This document shows, piece after piece, positions 1 through 45,619 of a stretch of DNA of 64,000 bases. Source of the DNA: Candidatus Zhuqueibacterota bacterium (GTDB lineage Bacteria > Zhuqueibacterota > Zhuqueibacteria > Residuimicrobiales > Oceaniaggregativiventaceae); contig WJMF01000099.1 of assembly GCA_014728085.1 (NCBI GenBank), forward strand, positions 62,001 to 126,000. Direction: 5' to 3'. Below the pieces are notes generated by a model. The model saw nothing but the letters and a program-made list of their open reading frames with translations. It ran no database searches and was not told the DNA's origin. The position numbers and the translations under genes are program-made. Positions within the stretch are counted from its first letter, which is position 1. The number at the start of each line of letters is the position of its first letter.

Positions 1-1911
1 GAAAAGTATGATATGTTGATCCTTTACGCTTTTTCCGATGCCAACGACCAGTTGATGGCACAGGAAATGCGGCGCCGTAATCCGGATCAAATTTTGCTCG
101 GCTCGGGGATAAACGGCATTTGGGTGAATGATCCACCGGCTTTTATGCTTTATCGCAGCTACCGGGGTACCCTGCTGGAAGATATCGAACCCGGACAGCC
201 GAGCTTTCGTGTCGATACCGTTGAAGGTGCGGATCTCGGTGTATATAGCGATGATCGCGTCTATTTATGGATCGGCGATGAAATTGTCCGGGTAACCATT
301 ATTGATGAAGCCGAAAATATTTTCCATGTGGTCAGCGATACCAGTTATCCCGGGGCTGTCAACGAGCAGCATTTTGCCGGCGATTCCGTTTTGAGCGCTA
401 TCCGGGACCAGGGGCCCGGTTTATATTGTACCTTCAGCGAATACGGCCCAACCTTGAACGGCCAGCGTTCCTGGGAGTATATGGCGGAAAAAAATATTGA
501 TCGTGAAATTCCCTATTACACCGGACTTTATGACGGTGTGTTTCATGATTTTTTTGCTTATAATCTCTATATCGGTCATTTCACCTTTGATCTCGATTAT
601 AACGGTGTCAGTGATCCGGAGGAGCATTCAAATAACTGGATCGGCAATACCTGGGGTTATGGCCGCGATCTTTTTGTCGAAACTGAACTGGCCGAGATGC
701 AGGAGGCATATCCGGGGGGAGCCCATTTGCTCAATCTAAACACCGGCAGCGCTCTGACGGATTATTACAATCTCTGCAGCGGTCATATGTTCGAAGGTTT
801 TCAGCGTTTTTCGGAATGGAGTTATGTAAAATACGATGCGACAACCTGGATCAACAATCATTCGGGTCCGAACACCAATTTTATCTTTGATTATTTTCCG
901 GAAAATAAATTTTATAACGGCAAAAACCGTTTCACCGAAGTCCGGTTCGGACTCGCGACGGCTATGATTTTTGAGTGCTATTACGCCCGTACGGCCGGCG
1001 ACACCTATTATCTGATGTTTTGGTACGATGAGTTTGAAACGGAGATGGGTTATCCGGTCGGCGATTATTATGAAATGAGCAATGGACTGGTTGCTCGAAA
1101 TTTTACCAATGGCTGCGTTGTCTGCAATCCCACCGGCTCGCCGCAGATTCTCAGCGCAAGTGATCTTCAGGGCGGGCCTTATTACCGTTTTCTCGGCGGT
1201 CAGCAACCCGATTTTAACAATGGTGAATTGTTCAACGGAACCCTGGAGCTCAGTGGCGCCGATTATGGTCCCCGCAACCTCAGAGGCGATGGTATCTTGT
1301 TGTTTAACGAACCTACGGTCTGTGTCAATGATATTATAATCGATAATTATTTCAATAACGGCACCTCTCCCGGCCAGGATTCTTCGGCATTCCAGCTGGT
1401 CGGCAGCTGGCGGGATTTAACCGCCAGCGGCTTTGAGGATTTTTCACAATGCAATCCTTTTTATTCCCAGCTTGCCAATGAGATGAGACACAGCAATTTC
1501 AATGGCGCCTATGGCTATAATGCCTGTTACGCCGGAGAGGGTGAAAAACAAGCCCTCTACCGTCCCTTTATCGGCGTACCGGGTTGGTACAAAGTCAGTG
1601 AATGGCATGGCTGGCACGGAAATACACCGGGAGCCGTCGATGAAGCCACCAATGTTCCCTTTCAGGTGGTGGTCTCCGGGGAGATAAAACTACGCGGTAT
1701 TATCAATCAACAACTGAATTATGGTCAATGGAACCGGTTGGGTTATGTTTACCTGCCACGGGGCACCGATGGCTATGTCAAGATCACGAACGCCGCCAAC
1801 GGAACCGTGATCGCCGATGCCATGAATTTTCATTATATGGGTCCGGATTATGTGCCGGATACCACACCGCCGGCTAGTCCTCAAAATATTCAGGTCTATA
1901 CTGTTGACTAG
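1..1911 (+). CDS. GHL15-like/golvesin-domain surface polysaccharide protein, 5' end outside window
   Basis: The frame is open from base 1, so the gene begins upstream; 636 residues are visible. The body, with many aromatic and Asp residues and segments such as YYTGLYDGVFHDFF and FNEPTVCVNDI, resembles the putative glycoside-hydrolase-like family 15 (GHL15) proteins found in polysaccharide loci. Residues of about 510-610, with GWYKVSEWHGWHGN, NYGQWNRLGYVYL and DGYVKITNAANG, look like the golvesin/xanthan-lyase C-terminal beta-sandwich. The protein stops right after PDTTPPASPQNIQVYTVD, which is normally the first strand of a fibronectin-III module, so the C-terminus appears cut short. Its position at the head of a glycosyltransferase cluster suggests a role in cell-surface or capsular polysaccharide handling. 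Family assignment is from remembered patterns and is moderate; catalytic activity is not shown. Confidence 0.6.
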   Translation, partial: EKYDMLILYAFSDANDQLMAQEMRRRNPDQILLGSGINGIWVNDPPAFMLYRSYRGTLLEDIEPGQPSFRVDTVEGADLGVYSDDRVYLWIGDEIVRVTIIDEAENIFHVVSDTSYPGAVNEQHFAGDSVLSAIRDQGPGLYCTFSEYGPTLNGQRSWEYMAEKNIDREIPYYTGLYDGVFHDFFAYNLYIGHFTFDLDYNGVSDPEEHSNNWIGNTWGYGRDLFVETELAEMQEAYPGGAHLLNLNTGSALTDYYNLCSGHMFEGFQRFSEWSYVKYDATTWINNHSGPNTNFIFDYFPENKFYNGKNRFTEVRFGLATAMIFECYYARTAGDTYYLMFWYDEFETEMGYPVGDYYEMSNGLVARNFTNGCVVCNPTGSPQILSASDLQGGPYYRFLGGQQPDFNNGELFNGTLELSGADYGPRNLRGDGILLFNEPTVCVNDIIIDNYFNNGTSPGQDSSAFQLVGSWRDLTASGFEDFSQCNPFYSQLANEMRHSNFNGAYGYNACYAGEGEKQALYRPFIGVPGWYKVSEWHGWHGNTPGAVDEATNVPFQVVVSGEIKLRGIINQQLNYGQWNRLGYVYLPRGTDGYVKITNAANGTVIADAMNFHYMGPDYVPDTTPPASPQNIQVYTVD

Positions 1912-11200: not shown

Positions 11201-11341
11201 AAATTAATGGCAATTGACGCTCAGCTATTGTTTTTTAATAATTAAGGTCTGTTTTAGGGTGATGAAAAGTGTATCACGATGAATAGACAAAAAATATTTG
11301 TTTTGTTTTGAGACAAAATCACGTTGTGGAGGTTAATTGTC

Positions 11342-20242: not shown

Positions 20243-20695
20243 TTACTTTAAATTACGGATCATAGCGATTTCATCGCAATCCGGAAAATGAGGGCAATTG
20301 ATACAATCTTTCCATACCTTATGGGGTAATTCTTTTTTATCAACAATTTGAAATCCCAATTTTTCGAAAAATCCGGGTTTATACGTCAGCGTAAACACGG
20401 TCGGGAGTTCCAGGTCTCGGGCTTCCTGTAAAAAGTATTCGACAATCTCGCGGCCATAGCCTTTTCCGATCTGGTCCGGAGTAATTGCCAATGATCTGAT
20501 CTCGGCTATATCTTCCCAAACGATATTCAGAGCACCACAACCAATGATGGTGTTATTCTCCTCGATGACCATAAAATCCCGCAAAGAATTATAGAGCTGA
20601 ATCCGGGACCGCGCCAGCATTTCTCCGTTGGCGGCATATTGGTTGATCAGCTGTATAATGTTGGGTACATCCTTGATTTTTGCTTTTCGTAACAT
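20243..20695 (-). CDS. argA: GNAT N-acetyltransferase, short-form N-acetylglutamate synthase (ArgA-like)
   Basis: 150 residues forming one GNAT domain: MLRKAKIKDVPNIIQLI, the central IRSLAITPDQIGKGYGREIVEYF acetyl-CoA loop (Q/R-x-x-G-x-G/A type) and YKPGFFEKLGFQ. This matches the stand-alone acetyltransferases annotated as N-acetylglutamate synthase in arginine operons, which lack the amino-acid kinase domain of E. coli ArgA. A cysteine-containing C-terminus (CINCPHFPDCDE) is also usual in this subgroup. It would make N-acetylglutamate, the first arginine intermediate, topping up the acetyl groups recycled by ArgJ. It is the last gene of the operon, 9 bases after argD. Confidence 0.8.
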   Translation of the reverse strand: MLRKAKIKDVPNIIQLINQYAANGEMLARSRIQLYNSLRDFMVIEENNTIIGCGALNIVWEDIAEIRSLAITPDQIGKGYGREIVEYFLQEARDLELPTVFTLTYKPGFFEKLGFQIVDKKELPHKVWKDCINCPHFPDCDEIAMIRNLK

Positions 20696-20704
20696 AATGA
20701 ATTA

Positions 20705-21886
20705 TCATCCTTTTAGAGAGCGTTGAAATATTCCCATAGCTTTATCGATGTGTTTCTTTTTTACCGTCAGCGGAGGCAAAAAACGAATCGTATTGTTACC
20801 GGCTTTGCAAAGTAGCAATCCGTTTGATACGCAGGTTTGTATGATTTTTTGTGGATCCTGGTCGAGTTCGACTCCTACAATTAATCCTTTCCCGCGTATG
20901 GCGGTTATCTTGTCTGATTTTATTTGAGAAAGTTGATCTTTCAGATATTGGCCGGTTTTTTTGACATGGGTCAAAAAGTCACCGTCTGCTATCGTTTTAA
21001 TGACATGTTCGGCGACTCGACTTACCAGGGGGCCGCCTCCGAAAGTTGATCCGTGATTTCCCACTTTGGTATGTTCAGCGATATGATCCTTCATCAAAAT
21101 GGTTCCCATCGGCAGTCCCCCTGCGATGGGTTTGGCCATCGTCATTATATCGGGTTCAATGCCGGAATGTTCATAAGCACAAAATGAGCCGGTGCGTCCA
21201 AGTCCACATTGAATTTCATCAAAAATGAGCAGACAATTATTTTCATCACAGAGGTTGCGCAAGCCCTGCAAAAAGGCTTTTTGCGCCGGGAAAATACCGC
21301 TTTCGCCCTGCACCGGTTCTGCAATAATGGCGCAGGTGTGAGGCGTGATATGTTTTTTTACTGATTCGAGATCGTTAAAGGTTGCATAGACAAAGCCGGG
21401 AACAAGGGGCTCAAAACCTTCCCAGAATTTCGGCTGTCCCGTTGCACTAAGCGCGCCAAAGGTGCGGCCATGAAACGCCTGGTGAAATGAGATGATTTGA
21501 TGGGCGTTTTTGTCCTTGACCGCGTGCGCCCATTTGCGGGCTATTTTCAGCGCTCCCTCAATCGCCTCCGCTCCTGAATTGCAGAAAAACACCTTGTCGG
21601 CAAAGGTTATCCGTGTGAGTAATTCAGCAACCCGAATCTGTGGTTCCGAATAATAAAGATTTGAACAGTGCCATAATTTTTCAGCCTGTTTTTTCAATAT
21701 TTTTACAGATGTTTTTTCACAGTGCCCAAGTGCGTTTACCGCAATACCGGCACAAAAGTCGAGATACTTTTTGTTCTCTTTATCATACACATATACACCC
21801 TTTCCGTGTGTGAGAACAAAATCAGGTCTGCTGTAGGTGTTTAAAATTACCTTTTTTTCAAGTTGTATACATTTTCCAGTGTTCAT
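20705..21886 (-). CDS. argD: Acetylornithine aminotransferase
   Basis: 393 residues, the normal length for ArgD. Class-III PLP aminotransferase features are GHCEKTSVKILKKQAEKLWH, FCNSGAEAIEGALKIARKW, SFHQAFHGRTFGALSATGQ, LLIFDEIQCGLGRTG and the PLP lysine in MAKPIAGGLPMG. It interconverts N-acetylglutamate semialdehyde and N-acetylornithine in arginine synthesis (and may serve in lysine synthesis). Unlike the tightly packed genes around it, it is separated from argB by 109 bases containing its own promoter-like sequence and a hairpin. Confidence 0.93.
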   Translation of the reverse strand: MNTGKCIQLEKKVILNTYSRPDFVLTHGKGVYVYDKENKKYLDFCAGIAVNALGHCEKTSVKILKKQAEKLWHCSNLYYSEPQIRVAELLTRITFADKVFFCNSGAEAIEGALKIARKWAHAVKDKNAHQIISFHQAFHGRTFGALSATGQPKFWEGFEPLVPGFVYATFNDLESVKKHITPHTCAIIAEPVQGESGIFPAQKAFLQGLRNLCDENNCLLIFDEIQCGLGRTGSFCAYEHSGIEPDIMTMAKPIAGGLPMGTILMKDHIAEHTKVGNHGSTFGGGPLVSRVAEHVIKTIADGDFLTHVKKTGQYLKDQLSQIKSDKITAIRGKGLIVGVELDQDPQKIIQTCVSNGLLLCKAGNNTIRFLPPLTVKKKHIDKAMGIFQRSLKG

Positions 21887-21920
21887 CTTATTTCCCGTAA
21901 AGGTTCAAAATTTTCTCTTG

Positions 21921-21936
21921 CCCGGTAGCAACCGGG
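21921..21936 (-). other. GC-rich hairpin in the argD leader
   Basis: CCCGGT and ACCGGG form a perfect 6-bp stem with a 4-base loop, 35 bases before the argD start on the coding strand. There is no T run after it, so it is not an intrinsic terminator; it could affect transcript stability or processing. Function unknown. Confidence 0.45.
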
Positions 21937-21953
21937 TCATGGATAGGTTCACT

Positions 21954-21981
21954 AAAATATAAAAATCATTTATGAGGTCAA
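21954..21981 (-). promoter_or_regulatory. Internal sigma-70-type promoter for argD-argA
   Basis: Read on the minus strand, TTGACC (21976-21981), a 16-base spacer and TATTTT (21954-21959) lie entirely within the argB-argD gap. Start of transcription would be near 21947, giving a leader of about 60 bases that includes the hairpin. This would let the last two genes be expressed apart from the long operon. Confidence 0.55.
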
Positions 21982-21995
21982 AACGAATTTTTTAT

Positions 21996-22775
21996 TTAAA
22001 GCTGGATAACAGTTCCCGTTGTTTCGTTCTGGTCAAGCATCTGTTCCAGAGCTCTGGCGCCCTGCCATTTGGTTATATGTACGCGCTTTACTCCGTTTTC
22101 AAGTGCTGCAAAAGCAGAATCCATTTTCGCCACCATACCACCGTGAATTTTGCCCTTATCGATCAATGATTTTATTTCTGCAGCAGCCAGAGCGGATTGC
22201 ACTCTGCCGTCTATCACCAATCCCTGAACGTCCGTGAAATAAATCAGATCCGAGCTGGTGGTTGCATACGCGAGGGCGGCTGCAGCGCTGTCCGCATTGA
22301 CGTTGTAGGTTAGACCATTTTGATCTGCGGAAACAGGGGATATCACGGGGACCTGATTCTCTTCGAGAACCCGCAAGACCACGGAAGGATTTATGTTTTT
22401 GATTTTTCCGACTCTTCCGAGAGAGCGGCCATGGCGAAAATAGGGTTCAACATGCAACAGATTTTTGCTTTTACCGGAAAGCGATCGGCAGGTGATGCCG
22501 TATTTTTCGAGATGACTGCAAATCGACTTGTTGACCTCTCTTGAGAGGACGCGTTCCACGATTTTAATGTCCTGCTCGGTTGTAATTCTATAACCATCGA
22601 CAAAAGCAGGTTCCCGTTTTGCTTCTTTTAGAGCCTGACTGATAGCGTTGCCACCGCCATGAACGATGATAAACCGCATATGATGAAGACGTTTAAATGC
22701 ATCTGCGAGTTCCTGATAACAGCTTTGCCGGTCAAATGCGCGCCCGCCGATTTTTATCAAGATTTTTCTCGTCAT
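21996..22775 (-). CDS. argB: Acetylglutamate kinase
   Basis: 259 residues from the ATG whose ATGA overlaps the argC stop; a longer upstream frame runs back through argC and is not used. Amino-acid kinase features are ILIKIGGRAFD (phosphate-binding Lys and Gly), IIVHGGGNAISQALKEA (substrate loop), VNADSAAAALAYA and a C-terminal GGMVAKMDSAFAAL segment. It phosphorylates N-acetylglutamate, the second step of the arginine pathway. Translational coupling with argC is likely because of the 4-base overlap. Confidence 0.92.
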   Translation of the reverse strand: MTRKILIKIGGRAFDRQSCYQELADAFKRLHHMRFIIVHGGGNAISQALKEAKREPAFVDGYRITTEQDIKIVERVLSREVNKSICSHLEKYGITCRSLSGKSKNLLHVEPYFRHGRSLGRVGKIKNINPSVVLRVLEENQVPVISPVSADQNGLTYNVNADSAAAALAYATTSSDLIYFTDVQGLVIDGRVQSALAAAEIKSLIDKGKIHGGMVAKMDSAFAALENGVKRVHITKWQGARALEQMLDQNETTGTVIQL

Positions 22776-23797
22776 GGCTGTAATCCTGTTTCTTCGTCCA
22801 GGCCCAGGAGTAGATTCATGTTTTGAATGGCTTGCCAGCTCGCTCCCTTGCCGAGATTGTCGATGGCGGAAAAAAGCTGAATGGTATCGTCGTAACGGTT
22901 GCCGACATGAATAAAACAATAGTTTGTATGGATGACCATATTCGTAGAGGGTATGATATCGACAGGCTTGACAAAAGGTTCATTTTTATAGAATTGTTCA
23001 AAGCTGGCGTGAACCGTTGCTCGGTCGACATCTTTTGCCAGGGGGACGTACAAAGTTGAAAACAAGCCCCGGTTCATCGGTATAAGGTGCGGGGTAAAAA
23101 CAACTTTACAGCCTTTATTTTGCTGTTGCAAAATAGTTTCAATCTCTCCGACATGCCGGTGTGTGCGTCCGGGTTTATAGGCAGTGAGATTTTCGTTTGC
23201 CGAGCAGAAATGGCTTGTCGGCGTGGGCGTTTTACCGGCACCGGTGACTCCGGATTTAGAGTCGATAAAAAGCAGGCCGGTGCCCAGTAAATTTGACTTT
23301 ATCAAGGGCAACAGGGCAAGCAAAATACTGGTCGGGTAACAGCCGGGATTACCGACAATGGCCGCAGCTCGGATTTGCTCGCGGTTCCATTCCGGCAATC
23401 CGTAAACCGATTTTTGCAGAAGGTCAGGGTGAGGATGTTTTGTCTGGTACCATTGTGCATAAAGATTCGCTGAACGAAAGCGAAAATCTGCTCCGAGATC
23501 GATGATTTTAATCCCTTTTTGCAAAAGGTCACTGGCCAGGGAGGCGGTCTCGCCTGCCGGCAGGCAGGTAAATACTATATCTGCATCTTTTTCCGCAATC
23601 TGATGTGAAGAGATCAATCGATGTTCGCCATATTGATTTAGCCAGGGATATATCTCTTCCAGCCTTTTGCCGGCACTGCTTTCCGAGGTGGCGTATGCCA
23701 ACGTCACAGCCGGATGCTTGCAGACAAGTCTGATGAGTTCTTCACCCGTATAACCGGTAGCCCCTACGATTCCTATCCTGTGTTTTGTGGAGGTCAT
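22772..23797 (-). CDS. argC: N-acetyl-gamma-glutamyl-phosphate reductase
   Basis: 341 residues. N-terminal Rossmann motif GIVGATGYTGEELIRL; catalytic cysteine at about residue 153 in VGNPGCYPTSILLAL; the C-terminal half has the substrate-binding stretch KTPTPTSHFCSANENLTAYKP and a conserved His in FTPHLIPMNRG. It reduces N-acetylglutamyl-phosphate to the semialdehyde with NADPH. It overlaps both neighbours by ATGA (proC upstream, argB downstream), which shows tight coupling inside the operon. Confidence 0.94.
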   Translation of the reverse strand: MTSTKHRIGIVGATGYTGEELIRLVCKHPAVTLAYATSESSAGKRLEEIYPWLNQYGEHRLISSHQIAEKDADIVFTCLPAGETASLASDLLQKGIKIIDLGADFRFRSANLYAQWYQTKHPHPDLLQKSVYGLPEWNREQIRAAAIVGNPGCYPTSILLALLPLIKSNLLGTGLLFIDSKSGVTGAGKTPTPTSHFCSANENLTAYKPGRTHRHVGEIETILQQQNKGCKVVFTPHLIPMNRGLFSTLYVPLAKDVDRATVHASFEQFYKNEPFVKPVDIIPSTNMVIHTNYCFIHVGNRYDDTIQLFSAIDNLGKGASWQAIQNMNLLLGLDEETGLQP

Positions 23798-24648
23798 TTT
23801 CTCGCTTTTTGGTTTTTTAAATTTTCTTCCGTCAACAGTTGACTGAGTTGTTTTGATTTGTTGGTGGCGGTTTCAACAGCTCTGATCAGCATGGGGCGCA
23901 GGCCATGTGTTTCCAATTCTTTTATTGCTGAGATCGCGGTGCCCCCGGGTGTGGTGACCTGGTCTTTGAGTACGGCCGGATGGACGTTGGTTTCTCTCAC
24001 CAGCTTGGCTGAACCGAGAACGGTCTGAGTCGCGAGCCGGGTGGCAACGTCGCGCGGCAACCCCATCATAACACCGCCATCGGTCAGCGCTTCGATCACC
24101 ATATATATATAGGCGGGGCCGCTACCGCTCATGCCGGTTATGACATCCATAAGCGATTCCGGTACGACCTCGACCATGCCGACTGAACTGAATATCTGCA
24201 TGGCCAATTCTTTATGAACCTTCTTTGCATGCTGACCCAGGCAAATACCGGTAGCCCCCTCGTCGACCACGGCCGGTATGTTCGGCATCGCCCGAATAAC
24301 CGGATTGTGTTTATCCAGTACGGACTGGATGGTATAGGTGTTGATACCGGCCAATATGGATATGATCAGGTGTTCTTTTTTAACAGCGGGTTTTATTTGT
24401 TGTAGTACGGTTTGTATGGTTTGCGGCTTTACGCAGAGGACAATGATATCCGCTTTTTCAACCGCTTTGTTGTTTTTAAGGGTGGTTTGTACACCCCAGT
24501 TGTCTTTAAGGGTTTGCAATCGGCTCTCAAAGATATCGGTTGCGATGATATTTTCAGGCCTGGTTAGGTTTGCTTTAATCAAGCCACCCAGCAGAGCCTC
24601 TCCCATATTGCCGGAACCGATAATTGCAATTGTTTTTGACATTAACAT
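23794..24648 (-). CDS. proC: Pyrroline-5-carboxylate reductase
   Basis: 284 residues. NAD(P)-binding start KTIAIIGSGNMGEALLGGL, the VLCVKPQTIQTVLQQI strand, VIRAMPNIPAVVDEGATGIC, and the C-terminal signature SGSGPAYIYMVIEALTDGGV with VTTPGGTAISAIKELE. It makes proline from pyrroline-5-carboxylate. Its place inside an arginine gene run, with a 4-base overlap to argC, suggests proline and arginine share control here; no proA or proB is seen. The start chosen has AGAGG seven bases upstream. Confidence 0.94.
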   Translation of the reverse strand: MLMSKTIAIIGSGNMGEALLGGLIKANLTRPENIIATDIFESRLQTLKDNWGVQTTLKNNKAVEKADIIVLCVKPQTIQTVLQQIKPAVKKEHLIISILAGINTYTIQSVLDKHNPVIRAMPNIPAVVDEGATGICLGQHAKKVHKELAMQIFSSVGMVEVVPESLMDVITGMSGSGPAYIYMVIEALTDGGVMMGLPRDVATRLATQTVLGSAKLVRETNVHPAVLKDQVTTPGGTAISAIKELETHGLRPMLIRAVETATNKSKQLSQLLTEENLKNQKARK

Positions 24649-24672
24649 TGTCGATCCTCTATAATGTTCAAC

Positions 24673-25866
24673 TCAGGTATGGTATTCAGCATTGATTTCG
24701 ATGTACTTGTGGGTCAGGTCACATGTATAGATGGTCGCTTTTTCTGTGCCTGTTCCCAAACTGGCATGAATTTTTATATCCTTCTTTTTTAATGCGGCTT
24801 TTAGTTTTTTTGTGTCGTATGGGACAGCCGCACCTTCCCGGGCAACCGGAATATCAGCGAACCAGATATCGAGTTTATCGGGTCTGATATCCACGCCGGT
24901 ACTGCCAATGGCCGAAATAACTCTGCCCCAATTCGGATCTTCTCCATAGATCGCAGTCTTTACCAGCTGAGAATTGGCAACAGCTCTTGCCGCCTGTTCG
25001 GCTTGCCCGGTGGTTCGGGCGTTGGTCACGGTGACGCTGATCGACTTTGTGGCTCCTTCTCCATCGGCAGCTAATTTTCGAGTCTGATCGAGGCATATCG
25101 CGTTGAGAGCGTCGAGAAAAACATCATACGCTTGATTTTCTTTGTTGATGATTCGGTTTCCCGACAGTCCATTGGCCAGACAAAAAACACAATCATTGGT
25201 GCTCATTTCGCCGTCTATCGTGAGGCGGTTATAACTGACATTAACCGCCTGATAAAGCGCTTTCTGTAATAAATCTGCTGAAATCGCCACATCTGTCGTG
25301 AGAATAGATATCATTGTCGCCATATTGGGCTGTATCATACCACTTCCTTTGGAAATCGCGCCGATGGTACAGTTGTTTTCTTGCAGCCGGAACGCAACCG
25401 CTTTATGTTTGGGCTTTGTATCTGTGGTTAAGATCGCCTGCGCCGCCTTTGCTCCGTTTTCAGGCGAAAGATTCCGACAGGCCCGTTCTATTCCGCTTCG
25501 CAGCAACGGCATGGGAAGATATTCACCGATAACACCGGTGGAGGCGATCAGTACCTGGCCGGCATCAATATCCAGTCCTTTTGCCGTCAACGCAGCCATT
25601 TCTTCGCAATCGTTCAGGCCTTGCTGACCTGTGCAGGCATTGGCAACACCGCTATTGATTACGATTGCCTGGGCCTCTTTGTTTCGTATGATTTTTTGAC
25701 TGAAAAGAATCGGTGCTGCTTTGAGGGTATTGGTGGTAAAAACGGCTGCCACTGTTGCGGGACAGTCGCTTTTTATCAAAGCAAGATCAGGAGTGCTCTC
25801 TTTAAGCCCTGCATGAATCCCCGCAGCGGCAAAACCCTTCGGGGTTGTTATCGAACCGGTTTTGAT
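24673..25866 (-). CDS. argJ: Bifunctional ornithine acetyltransferase/N-acetylglutamate synthase, apparent ATC start
   Basis: 397 residues if it starts at the ATC at 25866-25864. The in-frame TTG at 25779 would remove the conserved N-terminus TTPKGFAAAGIHAGL. The ATC is preceded at six bases by a strong AGGAGG, and no ATG, GTG or TTG exists in frame nearby, so a non-AUG start (or a sequence error at this base) is implied. The self-cleavage site is KGSGMIQPNMATMI, with the nucleophilic Thr at about 184 separating alpha and beta chains. NPNWGRV-type and GTGTEKATIYTCDLTH segments are conserved. It recycles the acetyl group from acetylornithine to glutamate. It overlaps the end of cimA by 19 bases. 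Confidence 0.9.
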   Translation of the reverse strand: MKTGSITTPKGFAAAGIHAGLKESTPDLALIKSDCPATVAAVFTTNTLKAAPILFSQKIIRNKEAQAIVINSGVANACTGQQGLNDCEEMAALTAKGLDIDAGQVLIASTGVIGEYLPMPLLRSGIERACRNLSPENGAKAAQAILTTDTKPKHKAVAFRLQENNCTIGAISKGSGMIQPNMATMISILTTDVAISADLLQKALYQAVNVSYNRLTIDGEMSTNDCVFCLANGLSGNRIINKENQAYDVFLDALNAICLDQTRKLAADGEGATKSISVTVTNARTTGQAEQAARAVANSQLVKTAIYGEDPNWGRVISAIGSTGVDIRPDKLDIWFADIPVAREGAAVPYDTKKLKAALKKKDIKIHASLGTGTEKATIYTCDLTHKYIEINAEYHT

Positions 25867-27461
25867 TTTGTACCTCCTTTTTTCGCTATTTTTTTCATTT
25901 CTTTTAACAATTTATATCGGATGCTGTCCACCAACGCCTGCCAGCTGGCTTGAATTATATTCTCTGAAACCCCTACCGTCCCCCAAATACTATCGTTGTC
26001 GGCTGATTCGATGAGTACCCGTACCTTGGATGCTGTTGCTGCTGAGCTATCCAGGACACGAACCTTATAATCGACAAGGTACAGTTGTTTTAATGACGGA
26101 TAAAAAGGCTCCAGCGCTTTTCTTAAAGCTTTATCCAGTGCATCCACGGGTCCGTGCCCATCTGCCGCAGTGTGTTCAACAACACCATCCACCCGAACTT
26201 TACAGATCGCTTCCGAATAGGCACTGCTTTCTTCTCTTTTTTCAATAATGACCTTTGCCCCCTGGAGCTCGAAAAAGGGGTGGAATTCTCCTGTTGCTTT
26301 TCTGGCCAAAACCTCAAAGGATCCATCCGCTGCTTCATACTGATAACCGTAATGCTCCAGTTCCTTGAGGTGATCGACGATTTTTTTTACATTGTCGTTA
26401 TCGCCCTTTATGTCGAGCCCCATCTTTTCAGCTTTGAAGACAACGTTGCTTCGCCCTGATTGGTCAGAAATCAGGATACGCTGGTGATTACCGATCAATG
26501 CCGGATCGATATGTTCATAGGTCTTTGGGTTCCGGCGTATCGCACTGACATGAATACCCCCCTTGTGTGCAAAGGCGCTGTTGCCGACAAATGGCAGTTC
26601 GTCACGTTGCGGTATATTGGCGATTTCGCTTATATAGCGGGATACCCTGGTCAGCTCTTTCAGGTCCAGGTTTTTACTTGTCGGGATTTTTAATTTCAAC
26701 GCTGCGTTGGCAATAACCGAACAGAGATTGGCATTGCCGCAGCGTTCTCCATATCCGTTAATGGTGCCCTGTACATGATCAAATCCCTGCTGAATGGCCT
26801 GTAACGAATTGGCGACGGCAACATCGCTGTCATTATGGGCATGAATGCCATAGGAAGCAGAAATGTTTTGTGCCCGCGTATGCTCGATAATGGCTTCCAG
26901 TTGTTTTGGAATGGTGCCGCCATTTGTATCACAAAGAACCAAGCAATCGGCCCCGGCCTCAACCGCTACGTTTAATGTCTCCAGCGCATATTGCGGATTG
27001 GCTTTATGGCCGTCAAAATAATGTTCTGCATCGTATATCACTGTTTTATTTTTTTCTTTCAGATAGGCAATACTGTCGTAAATCATCTCCAGATTTTTCT
27101 CAAGAGTTGTCCTCAAGCCTTCGGTGACATGTAAATCCCAGGACTTTCCGAAAATGGCGATTGCCGGCGTTTTTGCCTTTAACAACAGCCCGATGTTTTT
27201 ATCCTCGCTGACGGTACAATTCGCCCGCCGGGTACTGCCAAAGGCCGCGATTTTTGCGTTTTTCCATTCCAGATCATTCGCTTTTTCAAAAAAGCGAATA
27301 TCTTTGGGGTTGGAACCCGGCCATCCCCCTTCGATATAATCAACACCGAACTGGTCCAGTTTCTTTGCGATTTTTATTTTATCTTCTGCGGTATAGGATA
27401 TCCCCTCGCTTTGCCCTCCGTCGCGGAGGGTGGTGTCATATATGACTAGGGTTCTGTTCAT
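25848..27461 (-). CDS. cimA: (R)-citramalate synthase
   Basis: 537 residues. DTTLRDGGQSEGISYTAEDKI is the DRE-TIM HMGL-like N-terminus with the GGQ/E variant of citramalate synthases rather than the GEQSPG of LeuA (present next door at 28660-30171). YDAEHYFDGHKANPQYALE, VLCDTNGGTIP and ASYGIHAHNDSDVAVANSL give the metal-binding His and Asp residues, and residues beyond about 370 form the LeuA-type regulatory domain. It condenses pyruvate and acetyl-CoA to citramalate, supplying 2-oxobutyrate for isoleucine without threonine ammonia-lyase, which fits its place beside leuB and the ilv genes. Start ATG behind GGAGG. Confidence 0.9.
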   Translation of the reverse strand: MNRTLVIYDTTLRDGGQSEGISYTAEDKIKIAKKLDQFGVDYIEGGWPGSNPKDIRFFEKANDLEWKNAKIAAFGSTRRANCTVSEDKNIGLLLKAKTPAIAIFGKSWDLHVTEGLRTTLEKNLEMIYDSIAYLKEKNKTVIYDAEHYFDGHKANPQYALETLNVAVEAGADCLVLCDTNGGTIPKQLEAIIEHTRAQNISASYGIHAHNDSDVAVANSLQAIQQGFDHVQGTINGYGERCGNANLCSVIANAALKLKIPTSKNLDLKELTRVSRYISEIANIPQRDELPFVGNSAFAHKGGIHVSAIRRNPKTYEHIDPALIGNHQRILISDQSGRSNVVFKAEKMGLDIKGDNDNVKKIVDHLKELEHYGYQYEAADGSFEVLARKATGEFHPFFELQGAKVIIEKREESSAYSEAICKVRVDGVVEHTAADGHGPVDALDKALRKALEPFYPSLKQLYLVDYKVRVLDSSAATASKVRVLIESADNDSIWGTVGVSENIIQASWQALVDSIRYKLLKEMKKIAKKGGTKSKPVR

Positions 27462-27520
27462 ATGAATATCCTCCGGTCTGTGACCAACAGCATCAAAAAA
27501 GCAACAGGGTATGCTGATGG

Positions 27521-27537
27521 TTCGGGAATTTCCCGAA
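27521..27537. promoter_or_regulatory. Perfect 8+1+8 palindrome between leuB and cimA (operator candidate)
   Basis: TTCGGGAA, one base, TTCCCGAA: an exact inverted repeat of 17 bases inside the 131-base leuB-cimA gap, the longest gap inside the operon after the leader. Nearby, CAGCAT (27488-27493) and ATGCTG (27511-27516) form a second, looser inverted repeat. No convincing -35/-10 pair was found beside it. It may bind a dimeric regulator or form an RNA hairpin; the regulator is unknown. Confidence 0.45.
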
Positions 27538-27592
27538 TAAACATCATTAACAATCGATCAGGAGACAATCGGCTAAAATTTTGACATGTTGG

Positions 27593-28654
27593 TTATAGAC
27601 ACTTTTCTGCTATAGCTGTTCCCATCTGCTCTGTCGATACCGCCGTCGTATTCGAGTCGGCAATATCCACAGTGCGCAATCCCTCTGTGAGAACTCTGTT
27701 GATGGCGTTCTCGATTCGAGTTGCACAATTTTTCATTTTAAACGAGTATCGAAACATCATCGCAACAGAAGCTATCATGGCGATAGGATTGGCTTTGTTC
27801 TGTCCGGCAATATCAGGCGCTGAACCGTGTACGGGTTCATACAGGGCTCTGGATTCACCGAGACTGGCGGAGGGCAGCATGCCCAGAGAGCCGGTTAACA
27901 TGGAAGCTTCATCGCTGAGAATGTCGCCAAAGAGATTACCGGTCAGAATAACATCGAATTGCCCTGGATTGCGTACAAGCTGCATGGCGCAATTGTCGAC
28001 ATACATGTGGTTCATTGTAATGTTTGGATGGGTTTGAGAAATTTGTTTCACGCGGCGCCGCCAGAGCTGGGAGACCAGCAGCACATTTGCCTTATCCACA
28101 GAGGTGAGTTTTTGTCTTCGCATCGCAGCGGCGGCAAATGCAATATCTGCAATGCGGTCTACTTCCTTTTGCGTATATACCATGGTGTTGTATGCTTTGT
28201 CACCCTGGTCCTCTGCAGGGGTGCCGAAATAGAGGCCACCGGTTAATTCGCGAACAATCAGGATATCCACGCCGCTAATGATCTCCTTTTTCAATGTTGA
28301 GGCATTTTCCAGAGCAGAAAAGACCCGGGCCGGCCGTAAATTGGCGAATAATCCCAATTCTTTGCGCAAGCCCAGCAATCCCCTTTCCGGTCTCTTATCC
28401 GCCGGACCGCTGTCCCACTTTGGGTCTCCGATGGCGCCCAACAGTACGGCATCGCAAGAGGTGCAAAGTTGCAGAGTTTCCTTCGGAAGAGGAGTGTTGT
28501 GGCGATCAAGGGCTTTGCCGCCGATGTCGCCGTACTGATAATCAAACTCTATATCGGCAAAATCAGAGATTGCATCCAGGACCTTGATGGCCTGTTTGAT
28601 GACTTCCGGTCCAACTCCATCTCCGGGCAGAATGGCTATTGATTTTTTTTTCAT
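27593..28654 (-). CDS. leuB: 3-isopropylmalate dehydrogenase
   Basis: 353 residues from the ATG opening MKKKSIAILPGDGVGPEV; a GTG three codons earlier overlaps the leuA stop and is an alternative. Conserved points are LLGAIGDPKWDSGPADKRPERGLLGLRKEL, the VRELTGGLYFG motif, the catalytic Lys in TSVDKANVL and the metal-binding stretch LTGNLFGDILSDEASML (Asp residues). It oxidises 3-isopropylmalate in leucine synthesis, and with citramalate-derived 3-methylmalate it can also serve the isoleucine route opened by CimA. leuC and leuD are not in the window. Confidence 0.94.
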   Translation of the reverse strand: MKKKSIAILPGDGVGPEVIKQAIKVLDAISDFADIEFDYQYGDIGGKALDRHNTPLPKETLQLCTSCDAVLLGAIGDPKWDSGPADKRPERGLLGLRKELGLFANLRPARVFSALENASTLKKEIISGVDILIVRELTGGLYFGTPAEDQGDKAYNTMVYTQKEVDRIADIAFAAAAMRRQKLTSVDKANVLLVSQLWRRRVKQISQTHPNITMNHMYVDNCAMQLVRNPGQFDVILTGNLFGDILSDEASMLTGSLGMLPSASLGESRALYEPVHGSAPDIAGQNKANPIAMIASVAMMFRYSFKMKNCATRIENAINRVLTEGLRTVDIADSNTTAVSTEQMGTAIAEKCL

Positions 28655-28659
28655 AACAG

Positions 28660-30171
28660 TCACTTTTCCGTATGGATTCTGTTCACAGCACTGAGGTAGG
28701 CGCGAATACTCGCTTCTATCACATCTGTGCTCGCTCCGCGTCCCAGATACTTTTTACCGTTTTTTTCCAGCCTGACCACCACTTCACCAAGGGCATCTTT
28801 GCCGCTGGTTACACCACGAAGGTTATACTCCGCCAGTTTGACGTCAGAGCCGGTTAGTTTATCAATGGCCTTGCAGGCGGCGTCAATCGGTCCATCACCG
28901 ACGGCGGCATCCTGGATGATTTTATCCTCATACCTCAATTTTATGGCTGCTGTCGGAGCCGTTTGGTTGCCGCTAAGAATATGAAAGTAGACAAGCTGAT
29001 ATTTGTTCTCGGTTTTCTCGGTCTCATCACTCACCAGAGCAAGCAAATCCTCTTCGTAAACCTCTTTTTTCTTGTCTGCGACCTGTAAAAAGCGGTCATA
29101 AACGTGATCCAGCTCTTCTTTTATCAATACGAATCCGAGTTCAGCCAGGCGGGTTTTAAGACCGTGTCTGCCTGAATGACGGCCCAGCACGATTTTATTG
29201 GACTCTAAACCAATATCAGAGGGTGACATGATTTCATATGTGCTGGCATCTTTTATGACTGCATCCTGGTGGATTCCGCTTTCATGTGCAAAGGCATTGC
29301 CACCCACAATCGCCTTATTGGGTTGTACGGGAATGCCCATAAGATGGCTGACCATCCGGCTTGTATTCATGATTTCTTCTGCATTGATGGAGAGCGTTTT
29401 ACCATAATAACCCTGTCGGGTAACGAGCGTCATGACGACTTCCTCGAGCGCTGCATTGCCGGCTCTCTCTCCGACGCCGTTTATGGTAACTTCTGCCTGT
29501 TGGGCTCCATTCTTAATCGCCGCGAGCGTATTGGCGACAGCCAACCCCAGATCATTGTGACAGTGAACGCTGAGTATGGCGTTGTCGATATTGCTGACCG
29601 ATTGCCGCAGCTCTTTAATTAATTCTGCAAATTCTTCCGGGTTTGTGTATCCCACCGTATCGGGTATATTAATGACCGTTGCTCCGGCCTCTATTGCAGC
29701 CTGAACAATTTTAAACAAAAATGCCTTGCCCGTACGAGCGGAATCTTCCGGAGAAAATTCAACATCGGCGACATAACCTTTTGCTTTTTTCACCCCTTTT
29801 ATGGCCATGTCCAGGATTTCGTCTTCTGACTTTTTAAACTTTTTATCCAAATGTATTTTTGACGTGGCAACAAACGTGTGAATCCTTGGCTTTTCGGCTT
29901 TTTCAAGAGCCCTGGCTGCCTGCTCGATATCGACATCTATACAACGGGCCAGAGCAGCTATTGAAGGGCCTTTCACCTGTTCGGCGATGTTCTGAACGGC
30001 CTTGAATTGTACCTGCGACGAGACAGGAAATCCCGCCTCGATCACATCTACACCCAGCTTTGCGAGCTGATGCGCAATGGTTACTTTTTCATGAATATCG
30101 AGACTCGCGCCGGGTGATTGTTCTCCATCGCGCAAGGTGGTATCAAATATATAGACCCGATTTTGATCCAT
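28660..30171 (-). CDS. leuA: 2-isopropylmalate synthase
   Basis: 503 residues, normal for bacterial LeuA. The N-terminus YIFDTTLRDGEQSPGASLD is the LeuA signature; catalytic barrel elements include DVEFSPEDSARTGKAFL, INIPDTVGYTNPEEFA and LSVHCHNDLGLAVANTLAAI. Residues after about 390 form the LeuA dimerisation/allosteric domain where leucine binds. It condenses 2-ketoisovalerate with acetyl-CoA. It lies 12 bases after ilvC and essentially abuts leuB. Confidence 0.95.
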   Translation of the reverse strand: MDQNRVYIFDTTLRDGEQSPGASLDIHEKVTIAHQLAKLGVDVIEAGFPVSSQVQFKAVQNIAEQVKGPSIAALARCIDVDIEQAARALEKAEKPRIHTFVATSKIHLDKKFKKSEDEILDMAIKGVKKAKGYVADVEFSPEDSARTGKAFLFKIVQAAIEAGATVINIPDTVGYTNPEEFAELIKELRQSVSNIDNAILSVHCHNDLGLAVANTLAAIKNGAQQAEVTINGVGERAGNAALEEVVMTLVTRQGYYGKTLSINAEEIMNTSRMVSHLMGIPVQPNKAIVGGNAFAHESGIHQDAVIKDASTYEIMSPSDIGLESNKIVLGRHSGRHGLKTRLAELGFVLIKEELDHVYDRFLQVADKKKEVYEEDLLALVSDETEKTENKYQLVYFHILSGNQTAPTAAIKLRYEDKIIQDAAVGDGPIDAACKAIDKLTGSDVKLAEYNLRGVTSGKDALGEVVVRLEKNGKKYLGRGASTDVIEASIRAYLSAVNRIHTEK

Positions 30172-30183
30172 GACCTTATTACC

Positions 30184-31176
30184 TCATTTATTATTGATCC
30201 AGCTCATCATCTTGCGTAATTCTTTGCCTACTTTTTCGATTTTTTCGTTATCCAGTTTTTGCCGCAAGGCATTGAATTTTGGCCCATTGGCCTGGTTTTC
30301 CAGAATCCATTCCGTGGCAAAAGAACCGTCTTGCACTCTTTTAAGAGCCTCTTTCATCGCTTTTTTGCTCTCTTCGCCAATGATTTGAGGGCCCCTTGAC
30401 AGCCCGCCATACTCTGCTGTATCACTGACAGAGTAGTACATCCCAGACAAGCCATTTTCGTAGATTAAATCCACGATTAATTTCATTTCATGCAGACATT
30501 CAAAATAGGCAATTTCCGGTTGATATCCGGCTTCCACCAGCGTGTTAAAGCCAGACAGAATCAATTCCGTTACTCCTCCGCAAAGAACGGTTTGTTCCCC
30601 AAACAGATCGGTTTCCGTCTCTTCTTTAAAGCTGGTCTGCAAAACACCGGCTCTTGTTGCACCAATACCCCTGGCATAGGCGAGGGCAAATTCTTTGGCC
30701 TGACCTGAATAATCCTGATAAATTGCAATCAGACTTGGGACGCCCTGTTTTTGTTGATATTGACGCCTGACAAGATGCCCCGGTCCCTTTGGCGCAATCA
30801 TGATAACATCGATAGTGGACGGGGGTACGATTTGATTGTAGTGAATGTTAAATCCGTGCGCAAAAGCCAGAATGTTGCCTTTCTGCAGATTGGGAAGAAT
30901 GTCGTTTTTATAGACTCCGGGTTGTATGGTATCCGGTACGAGTAACATAATAATATCACCGGCACGAACAGCCTCTTTGTTTTCCATTACCTCAAGGCCG
31001 TCAGCTTCTGCCTGGTGCCAAAATTCATTTTTTTCGTGCAGAGCGACAATAACGTTCAACCCACTCTCTTTTAGATTCTGGGCATGTGCATGTCCCTGAC
31101 TACCATAACCGAGGATTACAATTTTTTTGTCCTTGAGGATATCAAGATTCGCGTCGCCATCATAATAAACTTTCAT
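30184..31176 (-). CDS. ilvC: Ketol-acid reductoisomerase
   Basis: 330 residues, the short class I KARI length. NADPH-binding [20 protein letters not shown], then [24 protein letters not shown], and the C-terminal knotted domain with [16 protein letters not shown], containing the metal-binding acidic residues, and [13 protein letters not shown]. It converts acetolactate or acetohydroxybutyrate to the dihydroxy acids for valine, leucine and isoleucine. The next enzyme (ilvD, dihydroxyacid dehydratase) is not in the window. Confidence 0.96.
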
Positions 31177-31191
31177 TTTTTGACTCCCAGT

Positions 31192-31698
31192 TTAAACATG
31201 GTTGGATAAAGTTTTGTCATGAAATTCTCTGATCATGGCAATAGAACCCGTTCTTGCCAGATCTTTAATGCCAAACGGTTTGAGGGTTTCAAGAAATGCG
31301 TTGATTTTCTTTTCACTGCCGGTTAATTCCAAAGTAACGGAATGATTGCTAATGTCCACCACCTTGGCGCGAAAAATGTCAACCAGGTTGGTAATATCGC
31401 CGCGTTTGGATGAAGGGCAGTGAACCTTGGCGAGAACCAGCTCACGGTTGACATAGTCTCTGCCGCTGGTTGTGATATCGGTTACCCGTATGACATCGAT
31501 GAGCTTGTTCAGTTGTTTGTTGATCTGCTCAATGACCCAGTCATCGCCTCTGACCACCATAGTCATGTTTGAAGTTTTGGTATCCACATGGCTGACACTC
31601 AGGCTTTCAATGTTAAATCCACGCGCGCTGAAAAGTCCTGAAATTCTTGCCAAAACCCCTGCCTGGTTTTCAACTTCGATATTGATAATATGTCTCAT
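31192..31698 (-). CDS. ilvN: Acetolactate synthase small (regulatory) subunit
   Basis: 168 residues. The ACT domain opens the protein (MRHIINIEVENQAGVLARISGLFSARGFNIESLSV), the hallmark of IlvN/IlvH that binds valine, and a second ACT-like C-terminal domain follows (LELTGSEKKINAFLETLKPFGI). It partners the catalytic subunit IlvB encoded just upstream; the stop of ilvB and start of ilvN share one base (TAATG), which suggests coupled translation and balanced amounts. Confidence 0.95.
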   Translation of the reverse strand: MRHIINIEVENQAGVLARISGLFSARGFNIESLSVSHVDTKTSNMTMVVRGDDWVIEQINKQLNKLIDVIRVTDITTSGRDYVNRELVLAKVHCPSSKRGDITNLVDIFRAKVVDISNHSVTLELTGSEKKINAFLETLKPFGIKDLARTGSIAMIREFHDKTLSNHV

Positions 31699-33416
31699 TA
31701 GGCCATTCCCCTTATCATTTCGTCAATTGGTGCTCCTGATGGCACCATTGGATAGACATTTTCTTCTTTATCTATAATGACATCAACAACGACCGGCCCG
31801 GGCGTTTCGAGTGCTTTTTTCAGTGTGGATTGGACCTCATCGGGTTCGGTTATACGGAACCCGGCAGCCCCATAGGCCTGTGCCAGGGCAACAAAGTCCG
31901 GGACATATGTCGGACAGTCATCTTCGGTTTGTTTGCAGTTCGGCGGACAATTGGGATTGCGTCTGAGACAAATGGATGAGAAGCGGCGCTTGTAAAAAAT
32001 TGCCTGCCACTGCCTTACCATGCCCAATGCACCGTTGTTCAGGATAATGATTTTTACCGGCAGATTGTAAATCACGGCCGTTGCCAGCTCCTGTATATTC
32101 ATTTGTATGCTGCCATCTCCGGCAATATCGATGACCATTCGGTCGGGGTTGGCGACTTGTGCTCCTATTGCTGCCGGAAATCCATACCCCATGGTCCCGA
32201 GCCCCCCGGATGTTAAAAACGCTCTGGGTTTCTTGAAATTATAATACTGTGCCGTCCACATTTGATTTTGTCCCACTTCTGTGGCAACAATGGCATTGTG
32301 GTCTGTCAATTCGGCTATCTGTTCGATGACGTATTGAGGTTGAATTTTGCCGATATTTGCATAAGAGAGCGGATGATCGTTTTTCCACTGCAGAATTTGT
32401 TTCATCCAGGTCTTGTGTTTTTGCTCGCTTAGAAGCTTGTTGATTTCGCGCAAAACGTACTTTACATCGCCAACCACCGGTACGGCGACCTGAACATTTT
32501 TGCGAATTGTGGTGGGGTCAATGTCGATATGAACAATCTGGGCGTTTGGGGCAAATTGTTCCACTTTGCCGGTGACGCGGTCATCAAAACGAACGCCGAC
32601 TGCAATGATGAGGTCAGCCTGTTGCATGGCATAATTTGCATAGGCGGTTCCGTGCATTCCGAGCATCTTCAAAGCCTGATCCGAGGTTTCGGGAAATGTG
32701 CCCAGCCCCATCAGTGTTGTTGTCACCGGTGCTTGAATTTTTTTTGCCAGGGTTTCGAGCTCCTGGTTGGCACCACTGCTGACCACACCACCGCCGGCAA
32801 ATATTACGGGTTGTTTGCTCTGTTCTATGAGGCTGGCCGCCTTTTTAATTTGGCGTTTGTTGCCTTTTATAGTGGGTTTGTAACTTCGAATTTCCACAGA
32901 ATCCGGATAAGTTGATCTGGTTTTAGCCTGCTGAATATCTTTTGGGATATCGACCAAAACCGGTCCCGGCCTTCCGGTTTGAGCAATATAAAAAGCGGAT
33001 TTTAAAATTTTAGCGAGGTCTTCGATGTTCTTTACCAGATAGTTATGTTTTGTGATCGATCGGGTTACCCCGCAAACATCCGCTTCCTGAAACGCATCAT
33101 TTCCGATCAAATGCGTTGCCACCTGTCCGGTAATGGCGACGATCGGAATGGAATCCATATGTGCCGTTGCCAGCCCGGTGGCCAGGTTGGTTGCTCCGGG
33201 CCCGGAAGTAGCAAGACAAATACCGGCCTTTCCTGAAGACCGCGCATAACCATCAGCCGCATGTATGGCACCCTGTTCATGGCGGGTGAGATAAAAAGGG
33301 ATGTCGCTGTTATAAAGACAGTCAAAAATATCGATCACCGCTCCGCCCGGGTAGCCGAAAATGGCCTGCACACCTTCCTGCTTGAATGCATGAATGATCA
33401 ATTCTGCTCCAGTCAT
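31698..33416 (-). CDS. ilvB: Acetolactate synthase large (catalytic) subunit
   Basis: 572 residues. ThDP enzyme with the catalytic Glu in YLTRHEQGAIHAADGYARSSG, FAD/central-domain stretch, and the ThDP-Mg motif GDGSIQMNIQELATA with NNGALGMVRQWQAIFY. The first gene of the operon, preceded by AAGGAG, a leader peptide and a strong promoter. An uncommon cysteine-bearing insert lies between the GMVRQWQ helix and the VPDFVALAQAYG segment, with C483, C490, C494 and C501, which could bind a metal or form disulfides; similar inserts occur in some other bacterial IlvB proteins. It makes acetolactate and acetohydroxybutyrate, the first shared step of branched-chain amino-acid synthesis. Confidence 0.95.
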   Translation of the reverse strand: MTGAELIIHAFKQEGVQAIFGYPGGAVIDIFDCLYNSDIPFYLTRHEQGAIHAADGYARSSGKAGICLATSGPGATNLATGLATAHMDSIPIVAITGQVATHLIGNDAFQEADVCGVTRSITKHNYLVKNIEDLAKILKSAFYIAQTGRPGPVLVDIPKDIQQAKTRSTYPDSVEIRSYKPTIKGNKRQIKKAASLIEQSKQPVIFAGGGVVSSGANQELETLAKKIQAPVTTTLMGLGTFPETSDQALKMLGMHGTAYANYAMQQADLIIAVGVRFDDRVTGKVEQFAPNAQIVHIDIDPTTIRKNVQVAVPVVGDVKYVLREINKLLSEQKHKTWMKQILQWKNDHPLSYANIGKIQPQYVIEQIAELTDHNAIVATEVGQNQMWTAQYYNFKKPRAFLTSGGLGTMGYGFPAAIGAQVANPDRMVIDIAGDGSIQMNIQELATAVIYNLPVKIIILNNGALGMVRQWQAIFYKRRFSSICLRRNPNCPPNCKQTEDDCPTYVPDFVALAQAYGAAGFRITEPDEVQSTLKKALETPGPVVVDVIIDKEENVYPMVPSGAPIDEMIRGMA

Positions 33417-33518
33417 AAAAAGATCTCCTTAAACTAGAAAATATTGTCAAAGCAAACCCTTGCGAGTTGGATGCCAGAGGAAATTTTGAAACAAAGTGGA
33501 ATGTTTTTTAAAGAGGAG

Positions 33519-33564
33519 CCCCTTGCACCCAAGTCCGTATTAACGAATACGGGGAAGCAAGAGG
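33519..33564 (-). promoter_or_regulatory. Attenuator-type RNA structure downstream of and overlapping the ilv leader peptide
   Basis: On the minus strand CCGTATT and AATACGG (33535-33552) form a 7-bp hairpin with a 4-base loop that contains the leader stop codon. It is enclosed by CCTCTTGC (33557-33564, Leu codons of the leader) pairing with GCAAGGGG (33519-33526). The same downstream stretch, GGGTGCA (33524-33530), can instead pair perfectly with TGCACCC in leader codons 15-16 (33633-33639), so the two folds exclude each other. No T tract follows, so Rho-dependent or translational control is as possible as intrinsic termination. Confidence 0.55.
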
Positions 33565-33680
33565 TCGAGTAGAATAATAATTGGGGTCAAAACAAGAATA
33601 TCGAGGGCAGGAATACCCTGAACGCCTACCATGGGTGCAGTGGTTAAATCAAATCTGCAGATTTTTTTGTTTGCGTTCAT
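33540..33680 (-). CDS. Branched-chain amino-acid leader peptide of the ilv-leu-arg operon (46 residues)
   Basis: ATG at 33680 to TAA at 33540, in the gap before ilvB. Residues 29-43 read LVLTPIIILLDLLLP; of the last 21 residues 8 are Leu, 5 Ile and 1 Val, with consecutive Ile codons (ATT ATT ATT) and Leu codons (CTA CTC, and CTC TTG CTT). This is the signature of an attenuation leader peptide that senses charged Leu/Ile/Val-tRNA, as in the ilv and leu operons of enteric bacteria. It begins about 36 bases after the predicted transcription start. It ends 123 bases before ilvB, inside a foldable region. The ribosome binding site is weak (AAAGAA). Confidence 0.78.
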   Translation of the reverse strand: MNANKKICRFDLTTAPMVGVQGIPALDILVLTPIIILLDLLLPRIR

Positions 33681-33722
33681 AACGATAATTCTTTAAAATG
33701 AGTGACTTAGTTTTATTAGCTA

Positions 33723-33750
33723 AATATAATCATTTATTTAAAAATGTCAA
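33723..33750 (-). promoter_or_regulatory. Sigma-70-type promoter of the ilv-leu-arg operon
   Basis: Read on the minus strand: a perfect TTGACA (33745-33750), 16-base spacer, TATATT (33723-33728). Predicted start near 33716, about 36 bases before the leader-peptide ATG. The surrounding sequence is very AT-rich. Confidence 0.8.
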
Positions 33751-45205: not shown

Positions 45206-45567
45206 CAAAGCAGGTCAGACAGTCGCGTGTGATATTCGATATCACATGAGGAAAGTCCGAACTCCGCAGGGCAGGGTGGTCCGTAACGCGGACGCGTTGT
45301 GAGGCGCGGAAAGTGCCACAGAGAACAGACATTCCGTCATTGACGGATTAAGGTGAAACGGCGAGGTAAGAGCTCACCGCCTCAATGGTGACATTGAGGG
45401 CACGGTAAACCCCACCCGGAGCAAGACCAAATATAAGGGGAGAGACGGCCCGTCTTGTTTGACCCTTGGGTAGGTCGCATGAGTCTGGTGGCAACATCAG
45501 GCCCAGATAAATGACTGTCGGTTCGCCTGTCGGCGAATTACAGAATTCGGCTTATCGATCTGCTTTG
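45206..45567 (+). ncRNA. rnpB: RNase P RNA, bacterial type A
   Basis: The catalytic RNA of tRNA 5' processing. Ends pair in an 11-bp P1 helix (45206-45216 with 45557-45567, one G-U pair). Internal conserved stretches are GAGGAAAGTCCGAACTC near the 5' end, ACAGAGAACAGAC, AGAGCTCACCGC, CGGTAAACCCCACCCGGAGCAAGACCAAAT, AGATAAATGACTGTC and the 3' GAATTCGGCTTATCGATC. The length (about 362) is normal. A possible promoter is TATACT at 45170-45175 inside the end of the zinc-ribbon gene. Confidence 0.96.
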
Positions 45568-45619
45568 TAATTTTTTAAGGATAATAGGATGTATTTATTA
45601 TATTTGGAGCAAAATATTT

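Follow-up and report, generated by a model that had tools for sequence, protein, structure and literature searches.

The ilvGMEDA, leu, trp and his operons of enteric bacteria are controlled by ribosome-mediated transcription attenuators, in which the control codons lie in strand 1, the stop codon lies between strands 1 and 2, and strand 2 pairs with either strand 1 or strand 3, never with both. Leaders for the branched-chain amino acids (BCAAs) leucine (Leu), isoleucine (Ile) and valine (Val) are known or predicted to precede ilvB or ilvD in enterics, Corynebacterium, Leptospira and staphylococci (PMC10272879, PMC11857589, PMC5794164, PMC1262725), and for the cys operons of Actinobacteria an involvement of Rho and of polypyrimidine sites has been suggested (PMC1262725). 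Here we analysed a stretch of 64,000 nucleotides (nt) from a Candidatus Zhuqueibacterota bacterium (contig WJMF01000099.1, positions 62,001 to 126,000; hereafter the window), in which the region upstream of ilvB, the first gene of a presumed ilv-leu operon, shares the enteric arrangement and very probably carries an RNA switch controlled by a leader peptide.

The minus strand was read directly from 33750 to 33417. A preliminary description of the sequence had reported here a perfect TTGACA promoter, a short leader and a 46-codon frame before ilvB, and all these parts were recovered in place. The RNA arms, absent from that description, are stronger evidence than the frame statistics. The features of the leader locus are the following:

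33723..33750, minus strand: sigma-70-type promoter, TTGACA-16-TATATT (consensus scan, 11 of 12 consensus bases)
33540..33680, minus strand: leader peptide gene, 46 codons plus stop, with a Leu/Ile-rich C-terminus (frame statistics and counterparts in 17 of 17 loci)
33557..33564, minus strand: arm 1, CCTCTTGC, over the leader codons GAC-CTC-TTG-CTT (Asp-Leu-Leu-Leu) (alignment; codon phase constant in 17 loci)
33519..33532, minus strand: arm 2, TTGGGTGCAAGGGG, whose core GCAAGGGG (33526-33519) begins 13 nt past the stop codon (pairs with arm 1 or arm 3)
33482..33518, minus strand: spacer between arms 2 and 3, C-rich and G-poor, a candidate Rho loading site (base composition)
33467..33480, minus strand: arm 3, CCTCTGGCATCCAA, the alternative partner of arm 2 (duplex energy against shuffles)
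33427..33432, minus strand: probable Shine-Dalgarno sequence of ilvB, AAGGAG (sequence)

The leader peptide of the window is MNANKKICRFDLTTAPMVGVQGIPALDILVLTPIIILLDLLLPRIR*, with LDILVLTPIIILLDLLLPRIR as its C-terminal end, and 123 nt separate the end of its stop codon from the ilvB start (33416). Its last 21 codons comprise 8 Leu, 5 Ile and 1 Val, as had been counted before, i.e. 14 codons for the three amino acids. We considered all the 684 frames of 25-100 codons on both strands of the window, whose last 21 codons hold on average 4.7 such codons (standard deviation 2.1), and only the leader reached 14.

To place the leader in a comparative frame we searched for ilvB in the relatives of this genome and across its order, working mostly with fragmented draft genomes, and counted the 17 order loci having an intact upstream region. 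Five genomes were left out of this count and taken as neutral evidence, since either no ilvB match was obtained (G008, G012, G019 and G020) or the locus ended at a contig end (G018). The frame and its bias, whose presence in related genomes had been proposed as a check, were found in 17 of 17 loci, with 9-15 Leu, Ile or Val codons among the last 20. Counted from the first in-frame ATG the leaders are 42-69 codons long, while in one of them (L014) there is no ATG and the start would be TTG. Upstream of the leader, TTGAC-15..18-TAnnnT occurs in 13 of the 17 loci. Apart from the Leu/Ile bias the peptides cannot be aligned among the genomes of the order, which fits a leader peptide and not a protein. 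As for other phyla, no frame with at least 12 Leu, Ile or Val codons among its last 20 was present in the 450 nt scanned upstream of ilvB in 52 loci. A second genomic place resembling the leader region (L002) was rejected as only an AT-rich, promoter-like stretch.

In all the 17 loci the order consensus consists of arm 1, CCUCUUGC, on Leu codons, followed by the stop codon and by arm 2, GCAAGAGG. Precisely, arm 1 or a close variant of it stands at the 3′ end of the leader in the phase nnC-CUC-UUG (17/17), the stop codon follows 5-14 nt past arm 1, and the core of arm 2 begins 7-14 nt past the stop. Arm 3, which competes with arm 1 for arm 2, was located 37-63 nt downstream of arm 2 in 16 of 17 loci. 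The 2:3 pairing was better than that of shuffled sequences at p < 0.05 in 14 of 17 loci, with a combined z of -13.9, the p-values being approximate and the related loci not independent; in the window the 2:3 duplex has -18.9 kcal/mol against -12.2 +/- 2.2 for the shuffles (p 0.017). The pairings 1:2 and 2:3 are mutually exclusive and their computed free energies are close. Positions flanking 2:3 differ among loci with the pairing retained, and in L009 a synonymous change of the leader is matched by the partner arm (CCUUUUGC with GCAAAAGG).

A covariance model of the 1:2 hairpin found one place per genome in 17 of the 22 genomes of the order, including two outside its training set, and nothing convincing in the remaining 60 genomes of the phylum. 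The sole match outside the order (G060, E 0.0015) was judged to be due to chance, as neither a Leu/Ile-rich leader nor a pair of arms was seen there. The Rfam covariance models, run with gathering and relaxed thresholds, gave no match at the leader region and recognised only RNase P elsewhere; the best weak match at the leader was RsaE, whose 18.3 bits fall below its gathering score of 79.

Outside this order, the loci examined in further orders and classes have ilvD at the head of the operon, and nearly all of them carry a Leu/Ile/Val-rich frame before it. These leaders have the same three-arm layout with arm sequences unrelated to those of the ilvB type, for instance CTGAGGTTATTCC with GGAATAACCTCAG (L136) and CCAGAAGCGAATCC with GGGAATCGCTTCTGG (L147). 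Pairing 2:3 was significant in 14 of 14 ilvD-type loci and the tests for 1:2 and 2:3 were both passed at 0.02 in 10 of 14; as a control, 400 random frames were taken from the window, and none passed both. The comparison thus suggests that alternating pairing is conserved and not any particular sequence, and the ilvD-type layout is the strongest evidence for it.

In some of these loci, i.e. L147/L148 (G025, G038), L153/L154 (G064, G065), L157 (G046) and L152 (G066), ilvD has a ribosome-binding site similar to arm 2 and complementary to arm 3, which suggests a translational output in those lineages. In L152 five T stand directly after the 1:2 hairpin, which might itself terminate there. The ilvD leaders of the window's own order (G001, G004, G006, G010, G012) were tried and fell short of passing the 1:2 and 2:3 tests together, hence they are not claimed; the Leu/Ile/Val-rich frames without three arms upstream of ilvD in that order (L161, L162, L164, L169, L170) may represent another leader design or chance. 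A search for phenylalanine leaders upstream of PF00800 genes yielded nothing convincing.

The mechanism that we propose is as follows. Transcription would start just past 33723 and a ribosome would translate the 46-codon leader. When tRNA for Leu (and Ile) is charged, the ribosome would reach the stop codon and leave, so that arms 1 and 2 pair and the spacer and arm 3 remain single-stranded (OFF), exposing the C-rich, G-poor spacer on which Rho would load. When Leu-tRNA is scarce, the ribosome would stall on the Leu codons of arm 1 and mask it, leaving arm 2 free to pair with arm 3 (ON), and the spacer would be enclosed by the 2:3 helix. An intrinsic terminator would play no part. A ribosome at a stop codon covers about 12 nt downstream (PMC4833913); one on the leader stop would stretch roughly to where arm 2 begins, which is also the case in classical attenuators.

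Sequence comparison supports the leader gene and the arms, the incompatibility of the two pairings, and the placing of codons and stop. We infer that stalling is the signal and 2:3 the ON state, the direction of the switch following from the expectation that biosynthesis should rise on starvation. The codons of arm 1 are chiefly Leu, Ile stands just upstream and Val is minor; since a codon too far from arm 1 would have no effect, Leu would be the main signal and Ile the second. By its sensor half the ilv leader is therefore well supported as a putative ribosome-mediated attenuator for which a response to starvation is predicted. The earlier proposal of attenuation as in enterics holds for the frame and for the mutually exclusive pairings with the stop between arms 1 and 2, but not for the intrinsic terminator, which is missing, and for this reason we did not class the locus as a classical transcription attenuator.

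As regards the output, a consensus scan of the window gave no hairpin with a U-tract between leader and ilvB, and the sequence beyond arm 2 folded no more strongly than shuffles in 16 of 17 loci. By a hairpin-plus-T rule 3 of 31 ilv leaders were positive, none of them conserved. Among the his leaders of this phylum 16 of 16 were positive, so intrinsic terminators can be recognised in these bacteria, and their absence in ilv leaders is not due to a failing of the method. In the window's own genome the his leader MFQQFPHNHHHLLTYPFKSGGNL is followed by AGCCCACC...GGTGGGCTTTTTTTT, where the terminator was found. Histidine-rich leaders with strong intrinsic terminators upstream of his genes were observed in L237 (551-623; own genome, G000:C74), L177, L182, L191, L192, L195, L197, L198, L200, L202-L204, L238, L239, L241 and L242, and these are apparently classical his attenuators.

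The spacer of the ilv leaders has on average 30% C and 6% G, versus 22% C and 21% G after the his leaders. In the window, spacer and arm 3 together have 30% C and 6% G, within the top 0.4% of the window for C minus G, and in most loci this part stands out from the surrounding sequence. A rho gene is encoded in the genome (TIGR00767, 712.9 bits). Given the lack of a terminator, a spacer rich in C and poor in G, and the presence of rho, we favour Rho-dependent termination as the OFF output in the window's lineage; this is the least certain step, to which we would assign a chance a little short of even.

Among the alternatives, the one that survives best is that the ribosome-binding site is masked in the OFF state and that pairing 2:3 relieves the masking. 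In several ilvD-type loci (G025, G038, G065, G046, G066) arm 3 is strongly complementary to an arm-2-like ribosome-binding site, and there a permutation with swapped pairs gave modest support (p 0.014-0.027). In the window's order, however, the same permutation gave p 0.16, the computed accessibility under constrained folding showed no systematic change (0.46 vs 0.49), and the distance from arm 3 to ilvB ranges from 65 to 250 nt, which makes masking unlikely for this lineage.

A classical attenuator of the enteric type, ending in an intrinsic 3:4 terminator, would account equally for the leader, the control codons, the position of the stop and the competition between 1:2 and 2:3; the terminator scans and the shuffled foldings reported above, however, speak against it, and we regard it as quite improbable. 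Even less probable is a small hydrophobic membrane protein, in place of a regulatory leader, as the product of the frame: the stretch of about 20 hydrophobic residues is long enough to span a membrane, but the peptides diverge in all except their bias, have no Pfam match, and the 3′ end of the frame is tied to RNA arms that run past the stop codon. A chance frame without function is scarcely credible: short frames are common (the 684 of similar length in the window), but only this one has its composition, its phase and geometry are constant across all 17 loci, and nothing comparable was found in the 52 ilvB regions of other phyla.

Downstream of the leader-plus-switch region, for which we prefer the reading as a leader-peptide-controlled switch, the genes are:

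31698..33416, minus strand: ilvB, acetolactate synthase large subunit, first gene of the operon (NCBIfam TIGR00118, E 7.8e-254)
20243..31698, minus strand: ilvN, ilvC, leuA, leuB, cimA, argJ, proC, argC, argB-type amino-acid kinase, argD and GNAT (gene order and family)

Gene order and family agree with the twelve-gene set, including arginine and proline genes, given in the preliminary description. The twelve genes from ilvB to GNAT stand on one strand, with about 130 nt separating leuB from cimA, and are presumed to form one operon and one transcript. That all of them are controlled through the charging of Leu-, Ile- and Val-tRNA was an assumption which is unsupported as it was worded.

Some observations weigh against the switch as proposed. 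The 1:2 helix is nearly invariant within the order, with the change in L009 as its one compensatory change, little variation being expected because one side of the helix is also coding. In L005 there is no clear arm 3. As for the Rho step, some ilvD-type spacers are A-rich and not C-rich (G046, G043), YC dinucleotides are not above the expectation from composition in most loci, and the depletion of G may merely keep the loop unstructured.

Other features of the window were noted. On the plus strand, a SecA gene (48851-55078) has 2075 codons, roughly double the normal size, and long insertions separate its SecA domains; a class A RNase P RNA lies at 45207-45570 (297.6 bits); and a protein of 2609 codons (11324-19153) shows, by eye, Ig-like stretches that repeat and what looks like a sorting-type domain at its C-terminus.

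Taken across the phylum, the BCAA leader-peptide switches could share a three-arm sensor, kept through a full turnover of the arm sequences and without an intrinsic terminator, with Rho-dependent termination on a G-poor spacer as the output of the ilvB-type lineage, a masked ribosome-binding site as that of some ilvD-type lineages, and his operons using classical terminators; we hold this generalisation for possible rather than probable, a degree below the Rho step. Ribosome-mediated BCAA attenuation would be extended to an uncultured phylum of the Fibrobacteres-Chlorobi-Bacteroidetes (FCB) type. That one phylum has his leaders with textbook terminators and ilv leaders that share their sensor logic but lack terminators suggests that an attenuator's sensor can part from its output. 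The alternating-pairing model, for its part, has been put to a clean test by nature, as all the arm sequences were replaced and the layout was kept. If the Rho step is true, this would be a BCAA attenuator whose stop signal is a G-poor loop and not a hairpin with a U-tract, a class that genome scans for premature intrinsic terminators would miss. We found no paper on BCAA attenuation in an FCB-type phylum, in a literature search that was thin on subscription journals. Comparative attenuator surveys have reportedly touched Bacteroidetes and Chlorobi, and for both these reasons novelty of the taxon is a weaker claim than novelty of the anatomy.

Compared with the enteric attenuators, the ilv leaders described here differ in having neither strand 4 nor an intrinsic terminator, and their strands 2 and 3 are set further apart, by a spacer that is poor in G. 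The leaders of Staphylococcus aureus ilvD and Corynebacterium ilvBNC (ilvB-II) likewise place a BCAA-rich peptide before the first ilv gene (PMC5794164, PMC10272879, PMC11857589), but they have an intrinsic terminator hairpin and their sequences are unrelated to the present leader. The ilvB-OMG and Leptospira ilvB motifs also have BCAA-rich upstream frames, inferred to be attenuators in other lineages (PMC10272879); unlike our leader, they have been described as compact, with an abundance of BCAA and threonine codons. The LEU element of leuA and the cys leaders of Actinobacteria resemble it in having Leu or cysteine codons and no obvious terminator (PMC1262725), whereas arm 1 of the window, unlike the LEU element, pairs with arm 2 and not with a Shine-Dalgarno box. 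Rho has been linked to leader peptides of other operons in orf34 of Salmonella speF (PMC6386406) and toiL-topAI of E. coli (PMC12121999), which combine an upstream frame with alternative RNA structures and with Rho-dependent termination, a step that is putative in ours; those systems sense arginine/ornithine or antibiotics and involve the ribosome-binding site of the gene, whereas the present one stands before a BCAA operon and is built of three short, exchangeable arms.
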